DNA of 64,000 bases from positions 1,254,501 through 1,318,500 of the forward strand of contig OZ029921.1 in the NCBI GenBank assembly GCA_964023275.1, given 5' to 3'. The translations under genes were made by a program, and so were the position numbers. The notes beneath the pieces were generated by a model. That model saw only the letters and a list, made by a program, of their open reading frames with translations. It was not told the origin of the DNA and made no database searches. The DNA is from Norana najaformis (Eukaryota; Annelida; Clitellata; Crassiclitellata; Hormogastridae). This document shows, in pieces, positions 7,820-61,029 of this stretch. Position 1 is the stretch's first letter. Each line of letters begins with the position of its first letter.

Positions 7820-8450
7820 GTCTTCAGTGTACTTTACGATGCCAACGCTCATGATAACGCTGAGTTCGTCGAAACTGAATGACACTCATAGACCTGGAAA
7901 AGTGAACATTCAGATGCAGGACATGACATCAACCTAGTGACACATGACATGGCTAAAATGACACTATGACACGCATAACTCAACCAAAACACACGACTAT
8001 GCCTCTCACCTACGTGGTCACATGAACTCCCATGCAGCATCACCTGTCACAGGCATCTGATATATCAGTGACATGATTTTTGACAAGTTCTTGTTGGCAC
8101 AGAAATCGCAGTCACAACGAGATAAGATTTTTCCCGAAAAACGTCGTCCGTTAAATTTTATCGATGTGTCAAGATGTGACGTATCATCTTCAACTGTGTA
8201 ACTGATGCCAGATTATGCAACACACCTGCGACCATGACGCTACTCCTCACGACATAAGTCAATGACAGACAAACAGACGTCATGCATGACACAAGTCGAC
8301 GATCATTGTGTAGTGTCAGCAAAACACAAGCAACCAAGACACTGACACGATACAGATGTCTTGTCAGTGATTGGCCAAGCTGGCAAATGATGTCAGGTCA
8401 GTCGAATAAGCAGGAAATCGAAGAGACTTTCAATATCGTTAGGCTGTTCA
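7820..8450. repeat. Degenerate tgacatgac-rich tract
   Basis: Irregular repetition of tgaca/atgaca words on both strands over about 600 bases, without a stable period. No gene is seen. Confidence 0.4.
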
Positions 8451-8689
8451 CGTTTCTGTCGACACCAGGCCAATATTTCAGAAAGAAGCGAACCAACTGA
8501 GAGTTCGCGACTTAAGACGATTTGGCAAATGACATCCATCTAAAAACAGTCAATCAGCAGGCAACATTATCTATACAGTAATATGCTTAAGAGCAATCTG
8601 GCTTTAAGTGTGTGCTGGTTCTATCTGGCGAATATGAGAACTAAAAGGTCACTTAAAAAGGTGAAATCTAAACGTACATACCTTTTGGC

Positions 8690-8905: not shown

Positions 8906-9234
8906 CATAAAATGCCAAGATAGCACCACAGAAGGAAATGCTAAGGAAGCACCATCAGAGGGGAACTCTGGTTGAAATCCAGCTGAACCCACCTGACTGA
9001 TCTGAGTATTTCCGGCGGTGTCATATTGCAACTCGGAGGCTGAAGAAGCTGAAGCGCTGAGCCACTGGAGCAGAGCCAGCAGCTGAGGTTCCTGGCCAAA
9101 CGCTCCATCAGGACAGTGTTCAGCATTGACAGACCTCTGCAACAAAGTCAAAGATCATCTCCCATTAGACATCGAAGCCATCAAACTATGACGTAACACA
9201 CTGTTGCGAAACAGTTTACTTCACAAAAACACAA

Positions 9235-9746: not shown

Positions 9747-11848
9747 TTAAATCTTGATACAGACCTTGACTCTTTGCAGTGGACTGCTTCCAGCCACTAT
9801 CTGTACAGCTTCGTCAATCAACTGATTGGCAAATTCGCTAGCAATCTCCTCCAGGCCCAACGGTGTCCTACCATCAGGCAATAGTAGCCTCCTGGTGAAG
9901 CACGTTCCCGGATGAGCCCCCGACTGGGCATCGCTACGGCAACTGGCATTCCCGGCAACCGCGACGTGTCGGGCTGCCTCGTGCTCGCTGACGGTCACGA
10001 TCTTTTGTGCCATATCATCGGCAAAGCGTAGTAAACCCAAACTCGGCTTTTCTGTGGTGGTCTTACATGGTCGGGTACCCTCCAAAGTTGGCTGCAAGGC
10101 TTGAAGCGAATTCTGGAGAGATGTCTTTCCAAAAAGCTCGACGAGCGCGTCGTCAAACGCGTCTACGAGCAAATCCTGCACGTACCAGTCCATAGACGTC
10201 GGGGGCTTCTCGATGCAGAGTCCAGCTGATGTGCTGAAGAGACCAAGGAGATATTCCCGCGATGAAGAAATCTTCCACACGCTCCGCGAACCTTGACCCA
10301 AACTGTGTCGAGAACACTCGCTGTTCTTAGCCGTTCCAAGAAACGTCCTGTCTCCCGCCTGGGCGCACAGGGAACCCGCACGAGCGGAAGTACTTGGAGG
10401 ATGCAATCGGTGGATATCCTCATCAAATGACTTGCTGGAAAACTGCTCGAGGGGTTTCCGAGCGTGTCCCACCGTCCACGGCAGATCAGACGGCGTATCC
10501 TGGAATGATGTTTGATCAGACAGAGATGGGACTGAGTGGCGATGACCAGTTGGAGCGATCCAGATCTCTTCAACGTGACTCTGCCGCCTGCTGCCGTCCC
10601 TGCTGCCAAAGTGGTAACAGTAGACGTCGACCGCCTCGCGGAAAATGCTGTTCAGGAAATCAGTCACGAAATCATCCAGTTCTTCCTTGACGCGTTCGCA
10701 GCCACGACAATGTGGCAATGGCATCACCTTTCCAGACGCTGCGGGAAAACCGGATGCCTGGTGAAGCTGAATGCTCCTCAGTTTCATCTCTTCAGGCTCT
10801 CTAGTATTTTCTGGGGATTTTTTTCGTTCAGCTGTTTTCTCACCAATATTTTGGAATCGACCGAAAGGTGCTGAGGTGCCTGCTGATGAAGCTGTTGCTG
10901 CTCCTTCCTTGGCATCTCTTGCGGCACCAAGCATCTGATTCATTCTCTGTTCACGAACAAGTTCCTCTATCTCGAGCTTTGAATCCTGTGCAACCTCGTT
11001 TATCAGGTTATCGACGAAGTGGTCCAGCGCCGTTGGATTGCATGGCACCGACATCAAGTTCACGGAGGCAGGCGTCAGAACGGCGCTGGCACCAGAAGAC
11101 AATGGTACGCCGGCGCCACCTTTGATCGGCTTCGGCTTTGCAATGTCTTTTGGACGATCGACAGAGAACTTCTGTGGCATTCTCGATCGAGTGTTGCTCG
11201 CATCTGTGAGCTCTGATGCCACGGTGCCAAATGCTCCTGCAGCAGCAGCGGCACCAACGACATCTTCCTCCATCAAAGACATGGCACCCGATTCTTCCTC
11301 AATAACGGACGTCTTGATGATGGAGCGCTGGAAGTTCTCGCAGTACTCCTCCATCTCGGAGCTGTAGTCCGTCGAGCTGCGTTTTCCGGCGCTACTTCCG
11401 CTGCTGGACGAGCTCCGGCGCGACATGTCACTCATTCCGGAGCTCCGCCTCCGACCGTATCCACTGAATATGTTTGGCGCGTCACCAGACTCGGATGCAA
11501 ACGAAGACTGGCACTGCAGGGTTGAGCCACGGCGGCTTGACTGTCCACTGCGACGGCGGGCAAACGTCGCGATGGGTGGCGCATCATCCGGTGTCAGACA
11601 TGTGTCGACGTCGAGCGACATGGCACGTGACAGGGAATCGGGAAAGCTGTTACTGCTGTCGGTTGACGAGTTGCTTCGCCAGGATGAAGCGTTTCGTGTG
11701 GGTCGCGTTCGGTGCAGCAGAGGCCGGGACCCAATTTCGTGGGCAAACGATGGGGAGGGCTTAGAACAGAGCATCTGGGGATCAGAAAAGGAGCCGAGGG
11801 ATTCGGACGACAGAAGAAGATCTGTCTCACTTGTCTCTTCGGCAACAT
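9747..11848 (-). other. AKAP-type tail with six amphipathic helix motifs (exon 8)
   Basis: In predicted protein numbering the motifs are YCENFQRSII (about 578), FVDNLINEVA (about 687), FVTDFLNSIF (about 803), YVQDLLVDAF (about 964), FADDMAQKIV (about 1018) and FANQLIDEAV (about 1082). They share a pattern of aromatic, small hydrophobic, two polar, two hydrophobic, two polar, two hydrophobic residues. The last resembles the AKAP-IS peptide core (QIVDNAIQ). Linkers are Ser/Arg/Pro-rich, with runs such as RRRSSGMSDMSRRSSSSSGS. RII binding is inferred, not shown. Confidence 0.7.
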
Positions 11849-14800
11849 CTGCAAGGTTAAAGGTCATTCTGGATACCTAAACTGCATTAATATCTAATTC
11901 TTGCATTTATATAGTGCCAATAATAAATCACAGACAAATAATAAACAGATGCCAGACAGTGTCCCAACCAGGAAATGCACCACTACATTGTACCTCGTTT
12001 GTGAAGCCCTTCAGCCAATTTTCAACTCAACAAGCAAATTTTACTGAATACCAATGCTGATTAGTACATGACAGTTTTGTTGAAGACTTTGTATCTATTT
12101 ATACATCCACCTATGTATGTCTTTTGATAACACATATCAAAAGACTTAGCACAGCACCGTTAAGTATTTCTCAGAAGGGCTGCATGCATGGCTCGCTGTC
12201 TAACAGATCCAAACAGATGAGTGTGATTCAAAGTAAGCTGAAAATGCATGCTGAGCAGAATTTTACGATAGTGGTATCAGCCCAGAAAGGACAACTTCTT
12301 CAGCTCACCGCTTACATTAACCATCTTGACACCATAGATTAAGATTTAGATTCAGAATTTAGACTGCACGCATAAAAATGCAGTAAATAAATAAATAAAT
12401 AAGCAAATAATTGGGTGCCAAGCTTCCAAGTTTGCATACCCTCCTCAAGAGCACTGCTGCTTTCTGTTCCACCCAGGACGTCGTCGGAGTTCCCCGAAGC
12501 CAGGGCTGGGTTGTCCAAGGGTCGAGTCAATCCCGCGGATTCCGAACGTAACCCAGTCAGCATCCTGGACAGGAAACTGAGGATAGTGTGCTGGCGATAC
12601 GGACGACGCACCTCCCCCGCAGAAGAATCGATGAGGCAGACACTGGTTCTACTCTCAGCTGCAACCTGCAAGCGAGTAAGTAAAATCCATCAACTATAAG
12701 CCTAAGAAAACTGAATATTCAAAAAATAGAGGTAATGCATGAATGTATGAAAGTATGTATGCACTGTATATATGTATGTATTCAATGTATGTATGTATGA
12801 TTATCCTTATTTATATAGCGCCTTTTAAGAACCTCACCAGGCCGCTAAACACGGCTATCTAAAAGATCGAAAAAGCTGGGACTTATGAAAGGTTGAAAAT
12901 GTTTTTTTTGCATTTACTGTGATGGAATAGAATGCATTTTTAGTGGAGGACTGTAATACAATATACTAAATATTTATATACAGCCATTTCAAAGAAACTC
13001 CCATGCAATGTAACCTGCAAGTAAGTTAGCAAGTCATCAGATGAAAGTGAAAACACACTTGGAAGAGCAAACCGTAACAGGCAGCCTAGGCTATGACGTG
13101 TAAGTGACCTCATTTTTCAGCTCTGCTCTTCAAGTGCGTTTTCAGTTTCAGTTGATGACTGGCAAACTTACTAGCATGTTACATCATGCATGAGAGTTTC
13201 TAAGAAAATGTGCTAAATAAATATTTAGTCAAACATGCTAACCAGTAGACTATCTCATACCCCACTTTATAGGACACAAGTTTCACATGCATTAAATGCA
13301 GAGATACTGTTAAAAAGCATCAAAGTGAAAACTCAAAATGGACCACTTCTTCTCCCACTCCAACATAATCAGCGCAATCACAGTTTTCCGTTAAACCTCA
13401 ACTGCAAGCATTACCTGCGCTGACTCATCCGACGAAGCGTGAACTGCGACAGAATCAGGAACTGAAGTGACAACTGAACCATGACCCAAACTGAGCTTTG
13501 AGTCAACAAGAGAACCATCGGTCAAGTCAACACCCGAGACATAGAACGCTTCACCGTCTGCCAGACATTCGATGAAGAGCATTCCCGACAACAGCTCAGC
13601 CTTCTTGCAAAACCAAACGTCTTCCTATAATAAGCAAAACACTACAAACACTGTACACAAAATAACTAACAATTAATGTCATGAACAGACATCACATCAG
13701 CCACTGTAGTCATGGCGGTCTATCAGTAATGTCTCTGGTCAATGATCATGCGGCTGCAGGTTCAACTGCATGGAATGATCCAGGGCAAGTTGTTTGCGCA
13801 CAATGTGGACCAGGAATTCGTTCATCGGTTTCTATGTGTCTGCGTGTGACCTGCCAGCAGAGACCTTCTCTATGCAAGTATTATTCAGACAGACGAACAT
13901 CAGTTAGACAGACTAGTGAGAAGTACTTTTGCGAGGTATTTAAAGGATCGCCAATGGCAACATACCTGCGTCTGACCAGAGCCAAGAGCTGATCCTCCAA
14001 AATGTTTGCTTCCAAATACAACCTAGAAATAATGACAGAAAATCCCTAAACAGAAAAGCAGATTTAAAAAACTGAAAACATACACACCGTTATCGCTCAA
14101 ACACGATACCCTGGCTGAATACAAAATGGTCAAATACACAAAAAAAATTAAAAAGCCGACAATTATTTTTGCGTACGTAGAAGCAAATACCTTACCTTTT
14201 AAAAAATGTCAGTTAAATGATTACCCAACCTTACCTTACCTCACCCTAACTTACTGTGCTACTGTTCATAAAAGAATACTTACCATGTCTCCATAATCTT
14301 GACACAATAGTGACCAAGTACCTTCCTAAACTGACAAACTCTGAACATGGAGTCAACTCCGGATGGGGATCATGTGGCTCTATGTGTGTGTGGGAACCTG
14401 CAAGTGGTGACTTTTCCAGTTGCCTGTGCATTTGTTTGCTCACAGACAAACTTTCTATTTTAGTGACCTTTGGCACCAATTTAGCACTTGACTTGACCTG
14501 AACTGATCTTTGACCTGACCTGACTTGATCTTTGAAGTTAGTTTCTACAGAACTTACCTGCACAGTTTCTGCAGAAGTGTCTGACCAACTGTGGCCTGAC
14601 GTGTGAACGATAACCGGACACAGAGGCTGAGCCGAACACATCCAGTCCTCTCCTTTTGGCACATCGTCGTGTCGTAATACCTGCATAAAGGTGATATACT
14701 GTCATTTCATAATTAGCTAACAAATATTTCCAGCTATAATCCAAGTAACGACTCTAGACAAGTTGTTTGTGTACACTGCGCCTCTGTCGCCAAGCAGTAT

Positions 14801-16692
14801 AATTTGGCACCGATGTAAGCTGGGAAGTAAGCGGCTAGTCCTGCAATGCACTGGCCTCGTGTCCAGGACCTTGGGATTTGTCCATTGCCGGCTCAAGGGC
14901 CTAAAGAAAAGAAAAATCAGCGCCTCCCCTACGTCTCACTTGTGGGTTATGGGATACTTCACTTACTTAAGAGATATGCAATGAATCAAGCTACAAGAAA
15001 GGTTCAATGTAGGAAAATCTTGTTACAGCAGTTACCTCATAATAAGAAGATTTCAGTGTTCATAATAGAAGACCCAAGCAGACCCAAGCAAAATTTAATG
15101 TCACATGTATACAGCACACCAACTGGCACATGATTTGCAAAGTAGGAAAGTCGTCATGACGTACTTACCTTTCGGGAAAATGCTAAGTTTCCTAGTGGTC
15201 TAGAATGAAGCTCTGATACAGTAGAAAAATAGCGGAGGATGTATCTCAGTTTCTCACATTGAAAATCACTAAAACAGAACAAAAACCCAGCAATAACCTA
15301 GTGAGGATCACACAACATCATTTCCACTAACCATGGATAATACTGAAAAACATATGAAGGTCCTCAGGTGAGCTGCAGCACAATCTTACCTGTCCAGGTG
15401 AAAAAAGTTGTTTTCTTCTACATAACTGTTATCACAAATTTATGTAGTGCCACCTCAAGAGAAACCCATCTAAGGTGTACCTGATCTTACAACACAAAAC
15501 CATGCTCAAACATAACGATTTTCAAGCGCTACGAGACTATGATGTGATCACACAACTTCACTTCCACTAACCGTGGTTGAAATGATAACCAAAATACGCT
15601 GAAGATCCTCAGGTAAGCTGGAGAACAATCTTACCTGTCCAGGTGAAGAAAAAAGTCATCGAAACTGAACATAATGGTTGAACGTAATGATTTTCAAGCA
15701 ATAGAAGACTATGAAGTGATTGCACTTCATTTCTGTATCGTGGTTAATACGATAACTAAAATACACTGAAAATCCTCAGATAAGCTTGAGAATGATCTTA
15801 CCTGTCCAGGTGTAGAAAGAAGTCATCAAAGCTGAAAATGCTTAGTCGTGACGATTGCTGGAGACTAGCAACGTGAGAGGGACATCGTCCTGGAAAAAGG
15901 CAGAGGAAAGCGCATGACACGAATGACGCGGCCAACCTCTTCGGTATGACACGCACCTCCTCTGCAGTTGAAGAAAAACACAAGTATTATTTTCTATTAT
16001 TCTAAATGTTATAACATTTTTAAACTTGGATAGACATGATCTCTCAGTACTTACAAAAATGGAGCAAAAAGTGTCATTATTATCAGTTTTTAAAACCCGA
16101 GGTAAGTGAAATCCCTCAGAAGATTAAGACTGTTCTAGAGGGAGTGGAAAACTATTCTTTGCAAGGGACAGCGCAGATTTGAAGGGCTAATCACTCTGAT
16201 ATTGTTATTATTTCATTTGTTAGTATTTTCTCTTTTTCTCCCTTTATCAAGTGATCGCAAACTCAAGATTTCTACTTTGCCCGACCTCTTTTCCACTCTT
16301 TCCATACATTATATGCAACTGATCAAAATTAGCTACACACCTCGTCGCTGTCTCAATATCTCCAGCCCATTTTCAGGCCTCAGACTTTCGATTTCCAAAG
16401 CAAGGTCAACAATCCACGGAAAAACGTGATCGATGTAGTTGTAGCTCTCCTTCAGCGTGGTTTTCGAGTCTAGGAACACACGTAGTCCAGAAAAGACGTT
16501 CCTCGTCTTTGATTTCGCTCCCGTGCCAGCCATCGCTTCACCAAGATCGGAGTGTAAAACATCGTGAGCCCGCTGAAAGGTTGCTATCCAGCTGTCTGCC
16601 GATCGAGAAGCCTTGCCCGCAGTCAAAATTGCCCGAACATTCGGCCACGACTTGTGGTCACAGGGAAAAACGACAAATCGGCTGTCTGCCAT
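9747..16692 (-). CDS. PARG-like pseudoenzyme fused to a multi-helix AKAP-type tail (1,109 aa predicted)
   Basis: Exons on the minus strand: 16692-16341 (ATG start), 15961-15802, 15268-15169, 14680-14558, 14022-13966, 13624-13415, 12665-12440 and 11848-9747 (stop). All junctions are GT-AG, phases agree (1, 2, 0, 0, 0, 0, 1), and the total is 3,330 nt. Residues 1-409 follow the PARG fold: FPCDHKSWPNVRAIL; the PWIVDLALEIESL/LEILRQ helix; FVSCAFLCLFP; FSFDDFFLHLD; CEKLRYILRYF; PLCPVIVHTSG; the signature loop; and ALASGNSDDVLGG. Residues 410-1109 are Ser-rich low-complexity sequence with amphipathic helices of the PKA RII-binding type. The expected activity (hydrolysis of poly(ADP-ribose)) is probably lost because key acidic residues are replaced. 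The large last exon also has an ATG at 11,867, but the phase-1 acceptor at 11,849 fits exon 7 exactly. I do not know a named orthologue. Confidence 0.85.
12985..13209. mobile_element. Foldback (hairpin) element in intron
   Basis: The left arm (about 12,985-13,069, including gtaagttagcaagtcatcag) is the imperfect reverse complement of the right arm (about 13,124-13,209, including gatgactggcaaacttacta). The loop is about 54 bases. It lies in the intron between exons 6 and 7 of the PARG-like gene. This is MITE or foldback-like architecture; I see no coding sequence. Confidence 0.7.
13415..14680 (-). other. PARG signature region of the pseudoenzyme (exons 4-6)
   Basis: Exon 4 ends in TVQ, exon 5 reads VVFGSKHFGGSALGSGQTQ, and exon 6 begins EDVWFCKKAELL. 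Aligned without gaps to human PARG (LQVDFAN...GGG...QEEIRF; numbering from memory), D737 becomes Val247, N740 becomes Ser250, and the third glycine of GGG becomes Ser256. Q754 and E755 are kept as Q264 and E265. The catalytic E756 becomes Asp266 and Y795 becomes Asp305. Scaffold positions around them (E..L, LF.E.L, E, G) are kept. Confidence 0.8.
13700..13820 (+). repeat. SINE-B 5' fragment
   Basis: catggcggtctatcagtaat, then B box CAGGTTCAACTGC and the ccagggcaagttgtttgcgc block. Confidence 0.65.
14745..14965 (+). repeat. SINE-B 3' fragment
   Basis: The run gacaagttgtttgtgtacac through cgtgtccaggaccttgggat and gctcaagggcctaaagaaaa. The tRNA-like head is missing. It lies in the intron between exons 3 and 4 of the PARG-like gene. 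Confidence 0.65.
15300..15850 (-). repeat. Triplicated exon-2 end plus intron in the PARG-like gene
   Basis: Three diverged copies of a roughly 190-base segment end near 15,410, 15,670 and 15,850. The rightmost contains the real 3' end of exon 2 and its donor. The middle copy keeps the peptide FSFDDFFLHLD and the donor CAG|GTAAG. The leftmost keeps only the donor and part of the coding sequence. The shared intron block reads (plus strand) atcctcag.taagct.gagaa, then the donor core atcttacctgtccaggtg. Confidence 0.75.
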
Positions 16693-18204: not shown

Positions 18205-19141
<937 letters not shown>

Positions 19142-30500: not shown

Positions 30501-33500
30501 ATATATCTATACATGTACAATTCATTGATTTGTTGTTTGATTGATTATGGATTGATTGATAGCCATTTACTAATTGTCCATCCACCTGATCCTACCTTTA
30601 CCTGATCATTACCATTATCACCTGTCGTTGCTTACCTGTGCCAGCGCCAGTCGTGCCTCTGCCTGAAGCCTCGCCTGTCTCGTGAAGAAGTCGAGCTCTT
30701 CCTTTGGGGCGCTGGTGGTGCTAAGAGGCACCATTGACTGCAGGGAATTCTTGGACGATGCCAGACTGGTCGAAGACGACAGCGAATGAAGCACCTGTAT
30801 GCAAACAACATGAAAAAGGAGCTACATAAAGGCTCTCATGCATATCAATTTATTCATTTCCCTACATATCATAAAGTTATGCTGTGTGGCAGGTTCTTAA
30901 AGACGCTATATTAATCTCCAGACAGATGCATGCATAGGTAAACACACTTGCTTTGTCTAAAACTGTCCTCAGCCGAGGACTGGCTGCACCACGGACAATT
31001 TTGTGCCGTCTGTTTCTGTCTTTTGTCTCCTGTAATAACTGGTCGAAAGATAATTCAGTCCACGACTTGATGTTATTGATCCATGTCATCCTGAGTCTTC
31101 CCCGAGCACGGGATCCAGGAACTGAGTCTTGGATGACCTCTTTCGCTAGGCAGTCTCTGCTCTTTCGTAGCACATGCCTGAAGTATGAAAGCTTCCTCTG
31201 TTTGTTTGATCCAAGTAGACTCCACGCCTGCCGTCTCTAGGACCCACTCGTTGTCTTCTTAGCAGTCCGCGGTACTGTAACAATCTAAGAATCGTACACT
31301 AGAAACCTCAAAAACCGCAGAAAGGCTCACAGATTGTCTGGCCGTTTGTATGTGTGTCTGGCTACAGGAAGCACGGAATTTCTGGCTACCGGTCCTCACC
31401 GTTAAGACTAAGAATTTGAAGTGGCCCATTGAAAGAATGGTTCTCAATTGTATCCCAACGGACCATTTCTACATCGTCCCCTTAAGAACTTCCCCAACAG
31501 ATTCTGAGTAGAAACTCTCACTTGAGCTCTCTTCCTCAGTTTCTGCGCCTCCTCTCTCCTCCACCACGTCTATCACAGCACCACAATCCGAATAACAATA
31601 ATATCCACTTTGTCGGGAACCGATGAAGCTGATAACGACCGACCGATCCTAGCCGAGCGGCCACGAAGAACTACGGCAAATAACGAAACTTGTACTTAAT
31701 GTCGATAAGCCGACACCAGATCTCGAAACACCAAGAACAGAATCCATAGCGTCGCAACTACCATCCAACCTCATATCAAGATGAAGCTCGGTTTCGATTC
31801 GTAGCCACGATAACCGCTTCCCAAGCGCGATAGTAATCCATCAACCTCGCTTCTGCTCGTTGACGATCGTGTTAACCAAACTCCGTTACGCCGAGCCGGA
31901 TTATCTCGGTTTCGACTGGGGTGCGTGACCTGAATCTTCCCCGGACACGCTCCCAAGAGGAAACGCAGATTTTCCGTATTACTTGGTCCTGTATCGATCT
32001 TGCCTCGCGGAATGGATTCGGCTAGGATCGATAGGCATGAAGCAGTTTTGAAAATGCGTTCGGGTTGGCGAAGCAAAAGAAACTGGTGACGATTTACGAT
32101 CGCTGCGCAACCGGAAAAGCTTCGGACCGCTTAAAACAATTCGGCTGCGATATTATTTATGTCGGAAATGTGTATTTATTGTCAAATGGACGCTTCTATC
32201 AGTGTATACGACTGATTAACAGTGGCCATTTTCTCGATACATCTGCAAGTAATGGTCTAATGGTTAGCGCACCAGACTCACAATCTAGAGAACGAGGTTT
32301 ATATCCCCGTCTATATAGAAAAATGTTTTGATATTTTCTGCTCCATTTGTGGCTCATAGCAAATCTGGCCATAAAATGAGTACACCGACCGTACGCTGTC
32401 GCTGGGAAGATCAGGCAGGAAAGAAAAGGACTGACCACCTGCCCATATATGCCGAGGCTAAGAAAATGAAGTCGCTAGGATTCTTTATGGGGCAACTGAT
32501 TGATTGTAATGTATGTACATCATTTTTTCAGCCTCGGCCGTATTACGACTGTACACTGTCGGTGGTAAGCTGAGGCAAAGCAAAGGACTGGTCATACGCC
32601 GAGACTAAGAAAATGAAGTCGCTATGATTTTTATGGTGATACTGATTGACTGTGGTGTAAGTACAGTGCTCTTTTACCATACTACGGCGCTCAGTAAATC
32701 ATCTTGTTCTTATTAATACGGGATTATGGGAGAGTTGTTTTTATGTGCGATTTCCCTGAATGCAGGTGGTTTCCAGCTGCAGTACCTGGCTGCCAGACTT
32801 GACGGATCGGTAGTCCTCCCTGGAAGATGATGATGAAGACATCCTCTCGACCATGAAACCGGTTTCCGCTGCGGATTCGGCCTCGGTCGAAGCCTCGTTG
32901 ACAAAGCACATCTGAAGGTTCATGGCACTGTGCAGTCGCACCTGGAGACTGGGCTTCTTGAAGAGGCGGTCAGAGGCACCGGCGCCAGTGGTGCCAAAAT
33001 GATCTTCATCCAATCCCATCGCCAGCTTCTGTCGTATCTTCTCGCGGTCATTCCGCTGTGACTTCAAGCAGAAACAAACAAGCAAGTGGCAACGTGAATG
33101 AATTTGATTGATTTATTGAATGGATTGATTGATAGCCGGTTACTGACTTGTCAATATATATGTACATATACCACTGATTGATTGGTGGATTGATTAATTG
33201 AATGATTGATTGCCGAATGAATGAATGAATGGAAATACGTTTCCTGTTGCATCAAAAAACCACTCAAATAGCTACCAGCCAGCCTATCGCCCCATCAGAC
33301 ACTCCATAAAACAATCTTATTATTGCACCCCATCAGAAATCTCACTGAAACAACCTTCCTATCACAAGAAACTCCATGAAAACAATCGCCCTTTTGCACC
33401 CCATCAGAATCCCAATAAAACAATCTTCCTATCGCATACTTAAAGGAAGTCTATTCCCATAAACAGAAACACCCACAGAAAACAACTAGCCAATATGCAC

Positions 33501-58560: not shown

Positions 58561-59524
58561 GCATGAGTTTCAAGCTTGTTATTTAAAGCGAATGGGTGCT
58601 TCAGCATGAATGGTATCACGTGACTGCTTCAATGGCAATCTCGCGGTAACACCTGCTCATAAACCCTCCATTAGCGAACATCAGATTCTCTGCCTACGTC
58701 CGGTGAGCTATAAAAAGATTATTACAGAGAAACAGAGGCGTGTTACTGGTCTGGCTACATTTACCGCAATGGGCCTTATTGATGTCGTCACGTGGTATTA
58801 GTTACCGACACAAACAATTGACCCTGTGACCTCAAAATGGAAATGTTGAACTGACCGTTATGAAAGACGCACAATTCATTAAATAGTTTAATGACTTATA
58901 ATTTAAGAAAATATAAAATTAGCTGTGAATTAATTATCAACTTTTATAGCGCCGGTGTATAACGTACGGATGAACAGAAGTGCCAAACCATGGCCAGTGA
59001 TCGAATTTAATTCAACGAGTCTGCTATTTAGCGCGTGTGGTCTCGACATAACCTATTTTAAAGTTCCGAGAAGACAGAGACACACACACACAGACACACA
59101 TAGAGGGACAGAGACACAGAGACAGAGATACGGCTTTTGGTGGCGTACTGAATGAGTGCACTGCGATGCTCGAATTCGATCCCCGACTCAAGCCTTCTTC
59201 ATTTCACCAACCAGTTCATATTTCTCTGCAAACAGACAGGTCAAAACACAGCTAAAGATATCCACTTGCACTCCTAGCACGACTGTGGCCTTAGGCTCAT
59301 CGGCATAAGTTGTCTAGTAGTAGGACAGTCGATAATATGACGCATTTATCATCTTGTAACAGAGTCATACATTGTCTCGTACCAGACACAATCGAGTCTG
59401 TCAGTAGGCCACATTTATTGTTGTGGTAACAATCGTGACAGTAGTTATCGTCGTAACGATGACGCCGAAGATACCGATAGTGATGATTACGAAGAAGATA
59501 ATAGTGATAAGAGCCGCGGTAATT

Positions 59525-59532
59525 ATGATGCT

Positions 59533-59563
<31 letters not shown>

Positions 59564-59635
59564 AACGATGGTGATAACGATGATGATAACGATGATGATG
59601 ATAACGGCAACGATGATGATAACGATGTGCTGTCA
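59525..59635. repeat. (GAT)n microsatellite
   Basis: GAT trinucleotides with AAC interruptions, just 3' of the last recognised PGRMC-like exon. Confidence 0.9.
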
Positions 59636-59654
59636 TAAATAATTCGAAGCCGAC

Positions 59655-59977
59655 CTTTGAACTGCATTTCCCAGCGTTCCAGACTTTCTTTCTGTGCTGG
59701 AGTGAGGTCAGAAAGGTCATCATACCCTTCCGGCGTTGCCATGGTCATCGTTGCCAGGCAACGGGACGCATCACGCCCAGCGAACGCCTCATACGGACCT
59801 CCTGTGCAAAACAAAGAACTGTTCCTTATTTAGATGTTGATTATGTAACATTAGGCCTAACAAAGTTTATTTAGCGCCTGAATATAAATGCGCTACATAC
59901 AAAGAGACAGAGATAGAGAGAGCCAGACACACAGAAAGAGAGATAGACAGACAGACAGGCAGATAGATCGATCGATC

Positions 59978-60031
<54 letters not shown>

Positions 60032-60628
60032 TAGATAGATAGATAGACAGATAAATAGATAGATAGACATATATATATAGATAGATAGACAGATAGATAG
60101 ATAGTAGATAGGTAGATAGATAGATAGATAGATAGATAGAGACAGGGAGAGAGACACAGAGAGAGAGACAGAGAAGGGGATAGAGAGAGAGACAGAGAAA
60201 GGGACAGAGAGAGGAACAGAGAGAGACAGAAAGAGAACATAAAGCAGACAAATAGAGACAGACAAATAGAGACAGACATTTAGCCAGAAAGGCAAACAAG
60301 CAAACAGACAGACACTGACTAAGACGACTCGATCCACTAAATCAGACAAAGCGAGAAGCTAGCGCCTTTTATCACAACCTATATCGGATGCAATATCGAA
60401 GACCCACCCGGTCCGTAGAACTGTTTTCCTTTGTCGGTGACATCAAAGACGTTTCCGTTCAATGCCACATAGATCGGCGTCGTTTGATCTTTTCCGTCGA
60501 ACGCCCGCAACTCCTCTGGGGTGAAGACACGTTTTTGATTATCCTCGCCAGACATAGCAATCTTCCAGTTCAAGGCCACTCCGAGGAAGCAGGAGCTCAG
60601 AGAGGTTGATCGGAGCTGATCCGCTGAT
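59655..60628 (-). CDS. Membrane-associated progesterone receptor (cytochrome b5-like heme) family
   Basis: Exon 60628-60408 (strong acceptor cttctgccttcccgcag) and exon 59801-59655 join in phase 1. The frame gives [48 protein letters not shown] and [20 protein letters not shown] ending MQFK. This is nearly the PGRMC1/2 core ([52 protein letters not shown]). The Tyr residues that bind heme in this family (FYGPEGPY) are present. An in-frame ATG at 60,555 could start a short cytosolic form. The frame upstream ([15 protein letters not shown]) may be the end of a membrane anchor. The usual last exon (a VGxLL-type segment) was not found, and the exon 2 donor (GTCGGC) is weak. Members carry heme to P450 enzymes and others. 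Confidence 0.8.
59900..60300. repeat. (GATA)n/(GACA)n microsatellite
   Basis: About 400 bases of GATA, GACA and GAGA tetranucleotides in the PGRMC-like intron. Confidence 0.95.
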
Positions 60629-60670
60629 CTGCGGGAAGGCAGAAGTGTTTCTTTTCCTATATTCACTACC

Positions 60671-60862
<192 letters not shown>

Positions 60863-61029
60863 TCATCATCACACAGTATACAATGAATACTTAACTGCAT
60901 AAGAGATCTTTTGCGGTTCTATGCAATAGGCCTAAGCATTAAAACCAGCTGTTTATAAGTAGTTACATACCTATGCACGCATTTACCTCCTAAGGTTCGA
61001 AAGGCTGCTATTGCGATAATCTCGTAAAA

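Follow-up and report, generated by a model that had tools for sequence, protein, structure and literature searches.

The 64,000-nucleotide stretch analysed here (the window; contig OZ029921.1, positions 1,254,501 to 1,318,500) carries a predicted minus-strand gene whose product combines the fold of poly(ADP-ribose) glycohydrolase (PARG), which cleaves off poly-ADP-ribose, with helices of the type that anchor cAMP-dependent protein kinase (PKA). Four such helices lie in a long insert that interrupts the PARG fold, the catalytic residues of which are altered. We consider it likely that the protein acts as a kinase scaffold like AKAP11 and SPHKAP, with no enzymatic activity. The sequence shows how the gene is built, that both PARG domains are present and where the insert lies; it also shows a homolog that spans the whole protein (P0004), the changed residues, the conserved helix motifs and a conserved array of RRxS sites. 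The function proposed for them is inferred.

Gene Structure and a Full-Length Ortholog

The sequence-based gene model comprises ten exons, from 16692 to 8393, with a joined coding length of 3,603 bases (stop included) and a predicted product of 1,200 aa (Table 1). All nine introns are of the GT-AG type, the phases match at every junction, and an in-frame stop lies eleven codons 5' of the start ATG. An earlier note on this DNA had proposed eight exons with agreeing phases. These were borne out on the minus strand, with GT-AG borders, together with the start given there, its count of 409 residues ahead of the long exon and the exon 7/exon 8 junction (12,440/11,848), across which P0004 is continuous. 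The 1,109 codons given there are counted correctly up to 9747, but the stop at that position lies in an intron: the exon 8 donor follows 9765, and only by reading on past it is the stop at 9747 reached, so that exons 9 and 10 had been missed. At its other end, the frame of exon 8 stays open 5' of the acceptor, up to 11876.

A homolog search with the whole protein yielded two exon-8-type open reading frames (ORFs) among 7,993 candidates scored, and with residues 1-390 not one of 7,994 candidates fell within an E limit of 1. With residues 566-720 as the query and an E limit of 10, seven of 3,170 candidates were homologs, namely the two seen before and P0003 to P0007. P0001, P0002, P0003, P0005, P0006 and P0007 are exon-8-type ORFs with 29-77% identity to the window ORF. 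P0004 is a single 1,234-aa ORF on a 4,368-base contig and contains both PARG domains. It aligns end to end with the window model, across all ten exons and with 47% identity overall, and is an ortholog. Identity per exon, taken over aligned residues, is 33-61%, from 19/58 in exon 7 to 19/31 in exon 3; residues lacking a partner in P0004 number 26 of 70 in exon 6, 17 of 75 in exon 7 and 48 of 695 in exon 8. Because the P0004 ORF is long and free of introns, it likely stems from a transcript. Moreover, since one ORF runs across all ten exons, two adjacent genes are very unlikely.

A PARG Fold Split Within the Macro Domain

The profile search returned the PARG match that the earlier note anticipated: in the window protein, Pfam PARG_cat_N covers residues 81-203 (2.6e-17) and PARG_cat_C residues 215-297 (1.3e-16). 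PARG chains also account for 15 of the 16 PDB matches up to E 10 (best 2.3e-17), the sixteenth being katanin (E 0.87). In combination, the hits in Pfam and PDB extend over residues 66-297 and part of the C-terminal 96. Of the 409 residues that the earlier note assigned to the PARG fold, 298-375 are covered solely in a joined macro-domain match with the insert left out, and the insert starts near residue 375, a boundary placed by eye.

When residues 376-1104 are removed, a single collinear PARG_cat_C match results, which spans positions 32-206 of the 207-position profile (E 2.1e-14). Hence, the Ser-rich stretch is an insert of ~730 residues inside the macro domain. Exons 9-10 (residues 1105-1200) align with the last part of PARG. 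Alone, they match PARG_cat_C at E 0.0016, and 11 of their 15 matches among PDB chains are PARG (best E 0.036). A Ser-rich last-exon tail fused behind PARG, as the earlier note had it, was rejected because exons 9-10 complete the macro domain. In P0004, the first PARG_cat_C stretch corresponds to profile positions 2-160 and runs to residue 355, and the last 96 residues alone match positions 162-205 (E 2.2e-4). The insert therefore falls between these two stretches.

Catalytic and Ligand-Binding Residues

The active site of human PARG contains the conserved acidic residues Asp737, Glu755 and Glu756, and its ligand is contacted by Asn740, Gln754, Tyr792, Asn869 and the GAFG loop; Tyr795 belongs to the Tyr clasp (PMC3519477). 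In bovine PARG, the counterparts of D737N and E755N still bind ligand, and the Asn mutant at the Asp737 equivalent is dead (PMC3519477).

In the window protein and P0004 alike, Asp737 is replaced by Val, Asn740 by Ser and Asn869 by His. The QEE motif reads QED in the window protein and EDV in P0004, which has Val at the Glu756 place; the GGG...QEE of active PARG thus appears as GGS...QED and GGS...EDV, respectively. No Tyr occurs in the Tyr-clasp stretch, neither between residues 292 and 357 of the window protein nor in P0004, where the stretch was read by eye. The GAFG loop is intact in the window protein, where it is the only member retained from the ligand-residue set (Asn740, Asn869, Tyr clasp, GAFG loop), and reads GAYA in P0004. 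Because catalytic and ligand positions are changed in both proteins, PARG activity is predicted to be lost.

Predicted Anchoring Helices and PKA-Type Sites in the Insert

For the motif counts, the PKA-anchoring helix consensus was used. It is matched seven times in the insert, always within helices A-D, against 0.80 matches expected, and RRxS is matched six times against 0.51 expected, with five of the matches in residues 507-556. None of 2,000 shuffles reaches either count, and when shuffling is confined to blocks of 20, 30 or 50 residues, 0-2 of 2,000 reach the window counts. Residues 1-375 show no excess of either motif (anchoring 1 vs 0.93 expected; RRxS 0 vs 0.21). The insert of P0004 is similar, with seven anchoring and seven RRxS matches (0 or 1 of 2,000 block shuffles), and P0007 has seven anchoring matches against 1.62 expected (3/2,000 shuffles). 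The repeated PKA-anchoring-type helices of the earlier note are thus upheld.

Across the eight proteins, i.e., the window protein and its seven homologs, RRxS is conserved in all at alignment columns 485, 512 and 513. The block SSTDYSSEMEEYCENFQRSIIKTSVIEEESGA is near-identical in six of them and recognisable in P0006 and P0007; no known motif was matched to it. The AlphaFold model of exon 8, which serves as a weak pointer to helices only, contains helices A, B, C and D as well as helices at residues 569-591, 939-946 and 1011-1041. Of helices A-D, only A has pLDDT (AlphaFold confidence) block means above 55 (59-77). Judged by their motif, the insert helices are of the amphipathic type that binds the PKA regulatory subunits RI and RII, and they may bind PKA. 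The exon-8 ORF had eight PDB matches, all antibody light-chain-like (best E 0.033), which were judged to be chance.

Relation to AKAP11, SPHKAP and Other Proteins

A PARG fold that is likely a pseudoenzyme is accompanied by PKA-type helices in one protein, as the earlier note claimed and the sequence supports. Its statement that no described protein couples the two is partly wrong in view of human AKAPs (PMC11377751) and a lamprey gene (PMC11788884). According to a 2024 report, the C-termini of human AKAP3, AKAP4, AKAP11 and SPHKAP show homology to the PARG macro domain, the N-terminal portion appears to have been lost, and binding of poly-ADP-ribose (PAR) is suggested (PMC11377751). SPHKAP can take two PKA holoenzymes and AKAP11 two of type I (PMC10460453). 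The window protein shares the architecture of the AKAP11-SPHKAP family in that its C-terminal PARG macro half stands behind PKA-anchoring helices, which are assigned by motif only. These AKAPs, likewise PKA anchors with a C-terminal PARG macro half, differ from the window protein, which retains the PARG helical half and the first macro half. Furthermore, an FFAT-like, VAP-binding motif is reported in AKAP11 and SPHKAP (PMC10460453, PMC3261905), and PMC3261905 describes such motifs in two AKAPs of this kind. None was found in the window protein under the one pattern searched, a pattern that fits, by eye, the three AKAP motifs printed in PMC3261905.

Compared with PARG itself, the helical domain, macro domain and C-terminal part follow in the same order, but the window protein has changed catalytic and ligand residues and the ~730-residue macro-domain insert. 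The lamprey gene g7740, labelled 'PARG_homolog', is annotated with PARG_cat and AKAP_110 in one table row (PMC11788884), the basis on which it is compared here, whereas the window protein has no Pfam AKAP_110 match. P0004 matches AKAP_110 at 0.094 as a whole and at 0.0015 with its last 96 residues (profile 605-672 of 690), both below the Pfam cut-off, and this match overlaps its C-terminal PARG match. TASOR and TEX15 likewise carry an ADP-ribosylation fold, namely PARP-like domains, in proteins with other work (PMC11377751). They differ in that their fold is PARP and not PARG. We know of no kinase anchoring for either. Apart from PMC11377751 and PMC11788884, none of the papers listed in literature searches, in a scope that excluded most subscription journals, described a complete PARG fold carrying a PKA-anchoring insert.

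We favour, with some confidence, a common explanation for the family: AKAP11, SPHKAP, AKAP3 and AKAP4 would be pseudo-PARGs in which a PKA-docking insert entered the macro domain and the enzyme died, with the whole dead enzyme kept as the folded platform of the scaffold in animals such as this one and the N-terminal portion lost in vertebrates. The gene looks like an unreduced form of the AKAP3/AKAP4/AKAP11/SPHKAP family, though without an AKAP_110 match of its own, and may have survived as an intermediate on the way from PARG to vertebrate kinase anchors of the AKAP11 type. A PARG copy would have gained the insert and lost catalysis, and the vertebrate AKAP3/4/11/SPHKAP line would also have lost the N-terminal portion.

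In the mechanism we propose, the PARG halves would fold together around the insert and form a folded platform that binds a partner. The insert would loop out, and each chain could dock as many as four dimers of PKA regulatory subunits through its helices and thereby cluster the kinase. Upon a rise in cAMP, released catalytic subunits might phosphorylate the RRxS sites next to these helices, which would change the binding partners of the scaffold.

Weighing the Alternatives

One alternative, which overlaps with the kinase scaffold on PKA anchoring, is an ADP-ribose reader: the PARG part would no longer cut PAR but still bind it, bringing PKA to ADP-ribosylated sites. The window protein retains the GAFG phosphate loop and one of the two Glu of QEE, the bovine D737N- and E755N-equivalent mutants keep ligand binding (PMC3519477), and PAR binding has been proposed for the human AKAPs (PMC11377751). 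Set against this are the changes at Asn740 and Asn869 in both full-length proteins, the Tyr-clasp stretch devoid of Tyr (by eye in P0004) and the absence of both GAFG and QEE from P0004. Between these proteins, the ligand pocket has not been conserved. With Asn740, Asn869 and the Tyr clasp altered and GAFG alone kept among the ligand contacts checked, a protein-binding scaffold is likelier, and we regard the reader as unlikely. A further alternative is that ADP-ribosyl hydrolase activity persists, the catalytic Glu being replaced by Asp, in a protein that also anchors PKA; in its favour is the acidic residue that QED places at the Glu756 position. We consider this very improbable: Asp737, whose Asn mutant is dead in bovine PARG (PMC3519477), has become Val, P0004 has Val at the Glu756 place, and Asn740 and Asn869 are changed.

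The helices might also bind partners other than PKA, such as other RIIa/Dpy-30-type docking domains, which would make the protein a general scaffold. The short consensus fits other amphipathic helices too. However, four separate conserved helices stand beside a conserved array of PKA sites, and the related human proteins anchor PKA (PMC10460453); hence, we think that non-PKA partners are quite unlikely. Finally, the model could conflate two adjoining genes, with exons 1-7 forming a short PARG-like gene and an AKAP-like gene of its own beginning in exon 8. The open frame 5' of the exon 8 acceptor would allow for such a start, and P0001-P0003 and P0005-P0007 are seen only as exon-8-type ORFs. 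Nevertheless, P0004 is one ORF over ten exons, the macro domain is complete only with exons 9-10 and the phases agree throughout. The odds of two genes are minimal, and this reading was rejected on the strength of P0004.

Several observations weigh against the kinase scaffold of AKAP11/SPHKAP kind that we prefer. On the side of the fold, exons 9-10 alone match the unrelated family EACC1 slightly better than PARG (0.0013 vs 0.0016), and within full-length P0004 the best PDB chain gives the C-terminal stretch a score of only -0.2 bits. On the side of the helices, anchoring counts are weaker in P0005 (3 vs 0.70 expected; 86/2,000 shuffles) and P0006 (5 vs 1.14; 20/2,000), and the AlphaFold model of exon 8 is of low confidence (mean pLDDT 33.8). 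As to kinship with the AKAPs, the window protein has no AKAP_110 match in Pfam even at E 10, the one FFAT pattern searched occurs in none of the eight proteins, and the combination of PARG_cat and AKAP_110 is counted as cyclostome-specific among 22 metazoans, ten of them invertebrate (PMC11788884). A provisional sequence for an N-terminal fragment of human AKAP11 gave E 1.0 in BLASTP against P0004, which is not significant. The fragment likewise gave no significant hhalign match to A2 (E 0.27, probability 0.2%); this match sits at the macro-domain place predicted for a split AKAP11 domain.

Feature Coordinates and the Rest of the Window

Table 1. Features of the predicted gene, in window coordinates; residues are those of the 1,200-aa product.
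Feature	Position	Strand	Residues	Description
Exon 1	16341..16692	-	1-117	Contains start ATG; PARG helical domain begins; P0004 start coincides
Exon 2	15802..15961	-	118-170	PARG helical domain (PARG_cat_N, residues 81-203)
Exon 3	15169..15268	-	171-204	PARG helical domain ends
Exon 4	14558..14680	-	205-245	Macro domain, first part (PARG_cat_C from residue 215)
Exon 5	13966..14022	-	246-264	VVFGSKHFGGSALGSGQTQ; former catalytic loop: Asp737 to Val, Asn740 to Ser, GGG to GGS
Exon 6	13415..13624	-	265-334	Macro domain; starts E-D at the place of PARG catalytic E755-E756
Exon 7	12440..12665	-	335-409	Macro domain to ~375, where the insert begins (boundary by eye; joined match)
Exon 8	9765..11848	-	410-1104	Bulk of the Ser-rich insert; relatives P0001-P0007
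Exon 9	8993..9136	-	1105-1152	Final piece of the macro domain, including the GAFG phosphate loop; Asn869 to His
Exon 10	8393..8539	-	1153-1200	C-terminal end of PARG-like region, and stop
PKA-type site cluster	11373..11558	-	507-568	Five of the six RRxS of the insert and one KRSS
Conserved block SSTDYSSEMEEYCENFQRSIIKTSVIEEESGA	11283..11378	-	567-598	Partly predicted helical
Predicted PKA-anchoring helix A	10947..11033	-	682-710	TALDHFVDNLINEVAQDSKLEIEELVREQ; consensus in 7/8 proteins; best-scored helix
Predicted PKA-anchoring helix B	10608..10679	-	800-823	LDDFVTDFLNSIFREAVDVYCYHF; consensus in 6/8; helix, low pLDDT
Predicted PKA-anchoring helix C	10128..10193	-	962-983	MDWYVQDLLVDAFDDALVELFG; consensus in 6/8; helix, low pLDDT
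Predicted PKA-anchoring helix D	9795..9854	-	1075-1094	LEEIASEFANQLIDEAVQIV; consensus in 8/8; helix, low pLDDT

Within the gene, a stretch of ~101 bases occurs in three imperfect copies at 15327-15839 (62% and 85% identity to the middle copy). Since the copy at 15739-15839 takes in the 3' end of exon 2 together with the donor site, intron 2 holds imperfect copies of an exon end. Outside the gene, nine window ORFs were scanned, and one at 32744-33112 (-) matches SCHIP-1_C (2e-19) and is likely an exon of a schwannomin-interacting-protein gene. Two ORFs at 59404-60918 (-) resemble, by eye, exons of a PGRMC-type cytochrome b5 gene; of these, only 60382-60918 matches Cyt-b5 (1.4e-4, just under the cut-off). 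Judging by these neighbours, the window is DNA of an animal. Long TA and GA simple repeats lie at 18205-18390, and other simple tracts elsewhere in the window appear as repetitive ORFs. Scans of the window with Rfam (gathering scores) and for tRNAs found none.

Implications

AKAP11 is a risk gene for bipolar disorder and schizophrenia (PMC11952666), and the role of its PARG-like C-terminus is a conjecture in PMC11377751. From a protein with the fold still complete, a possible origin of this C-terminal piece can be seen. The gene makes two questions open to testing: is ADP-ribose a ligand of the fold or does it bind a protein partner alone, and by what route did an enzyme turn into a kinase scaffold? 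The pair of PARG and AKAP_110, tabulated as cyclostome-specific, may be older than that and may predate cyclostomes if the host is an invertebrate.

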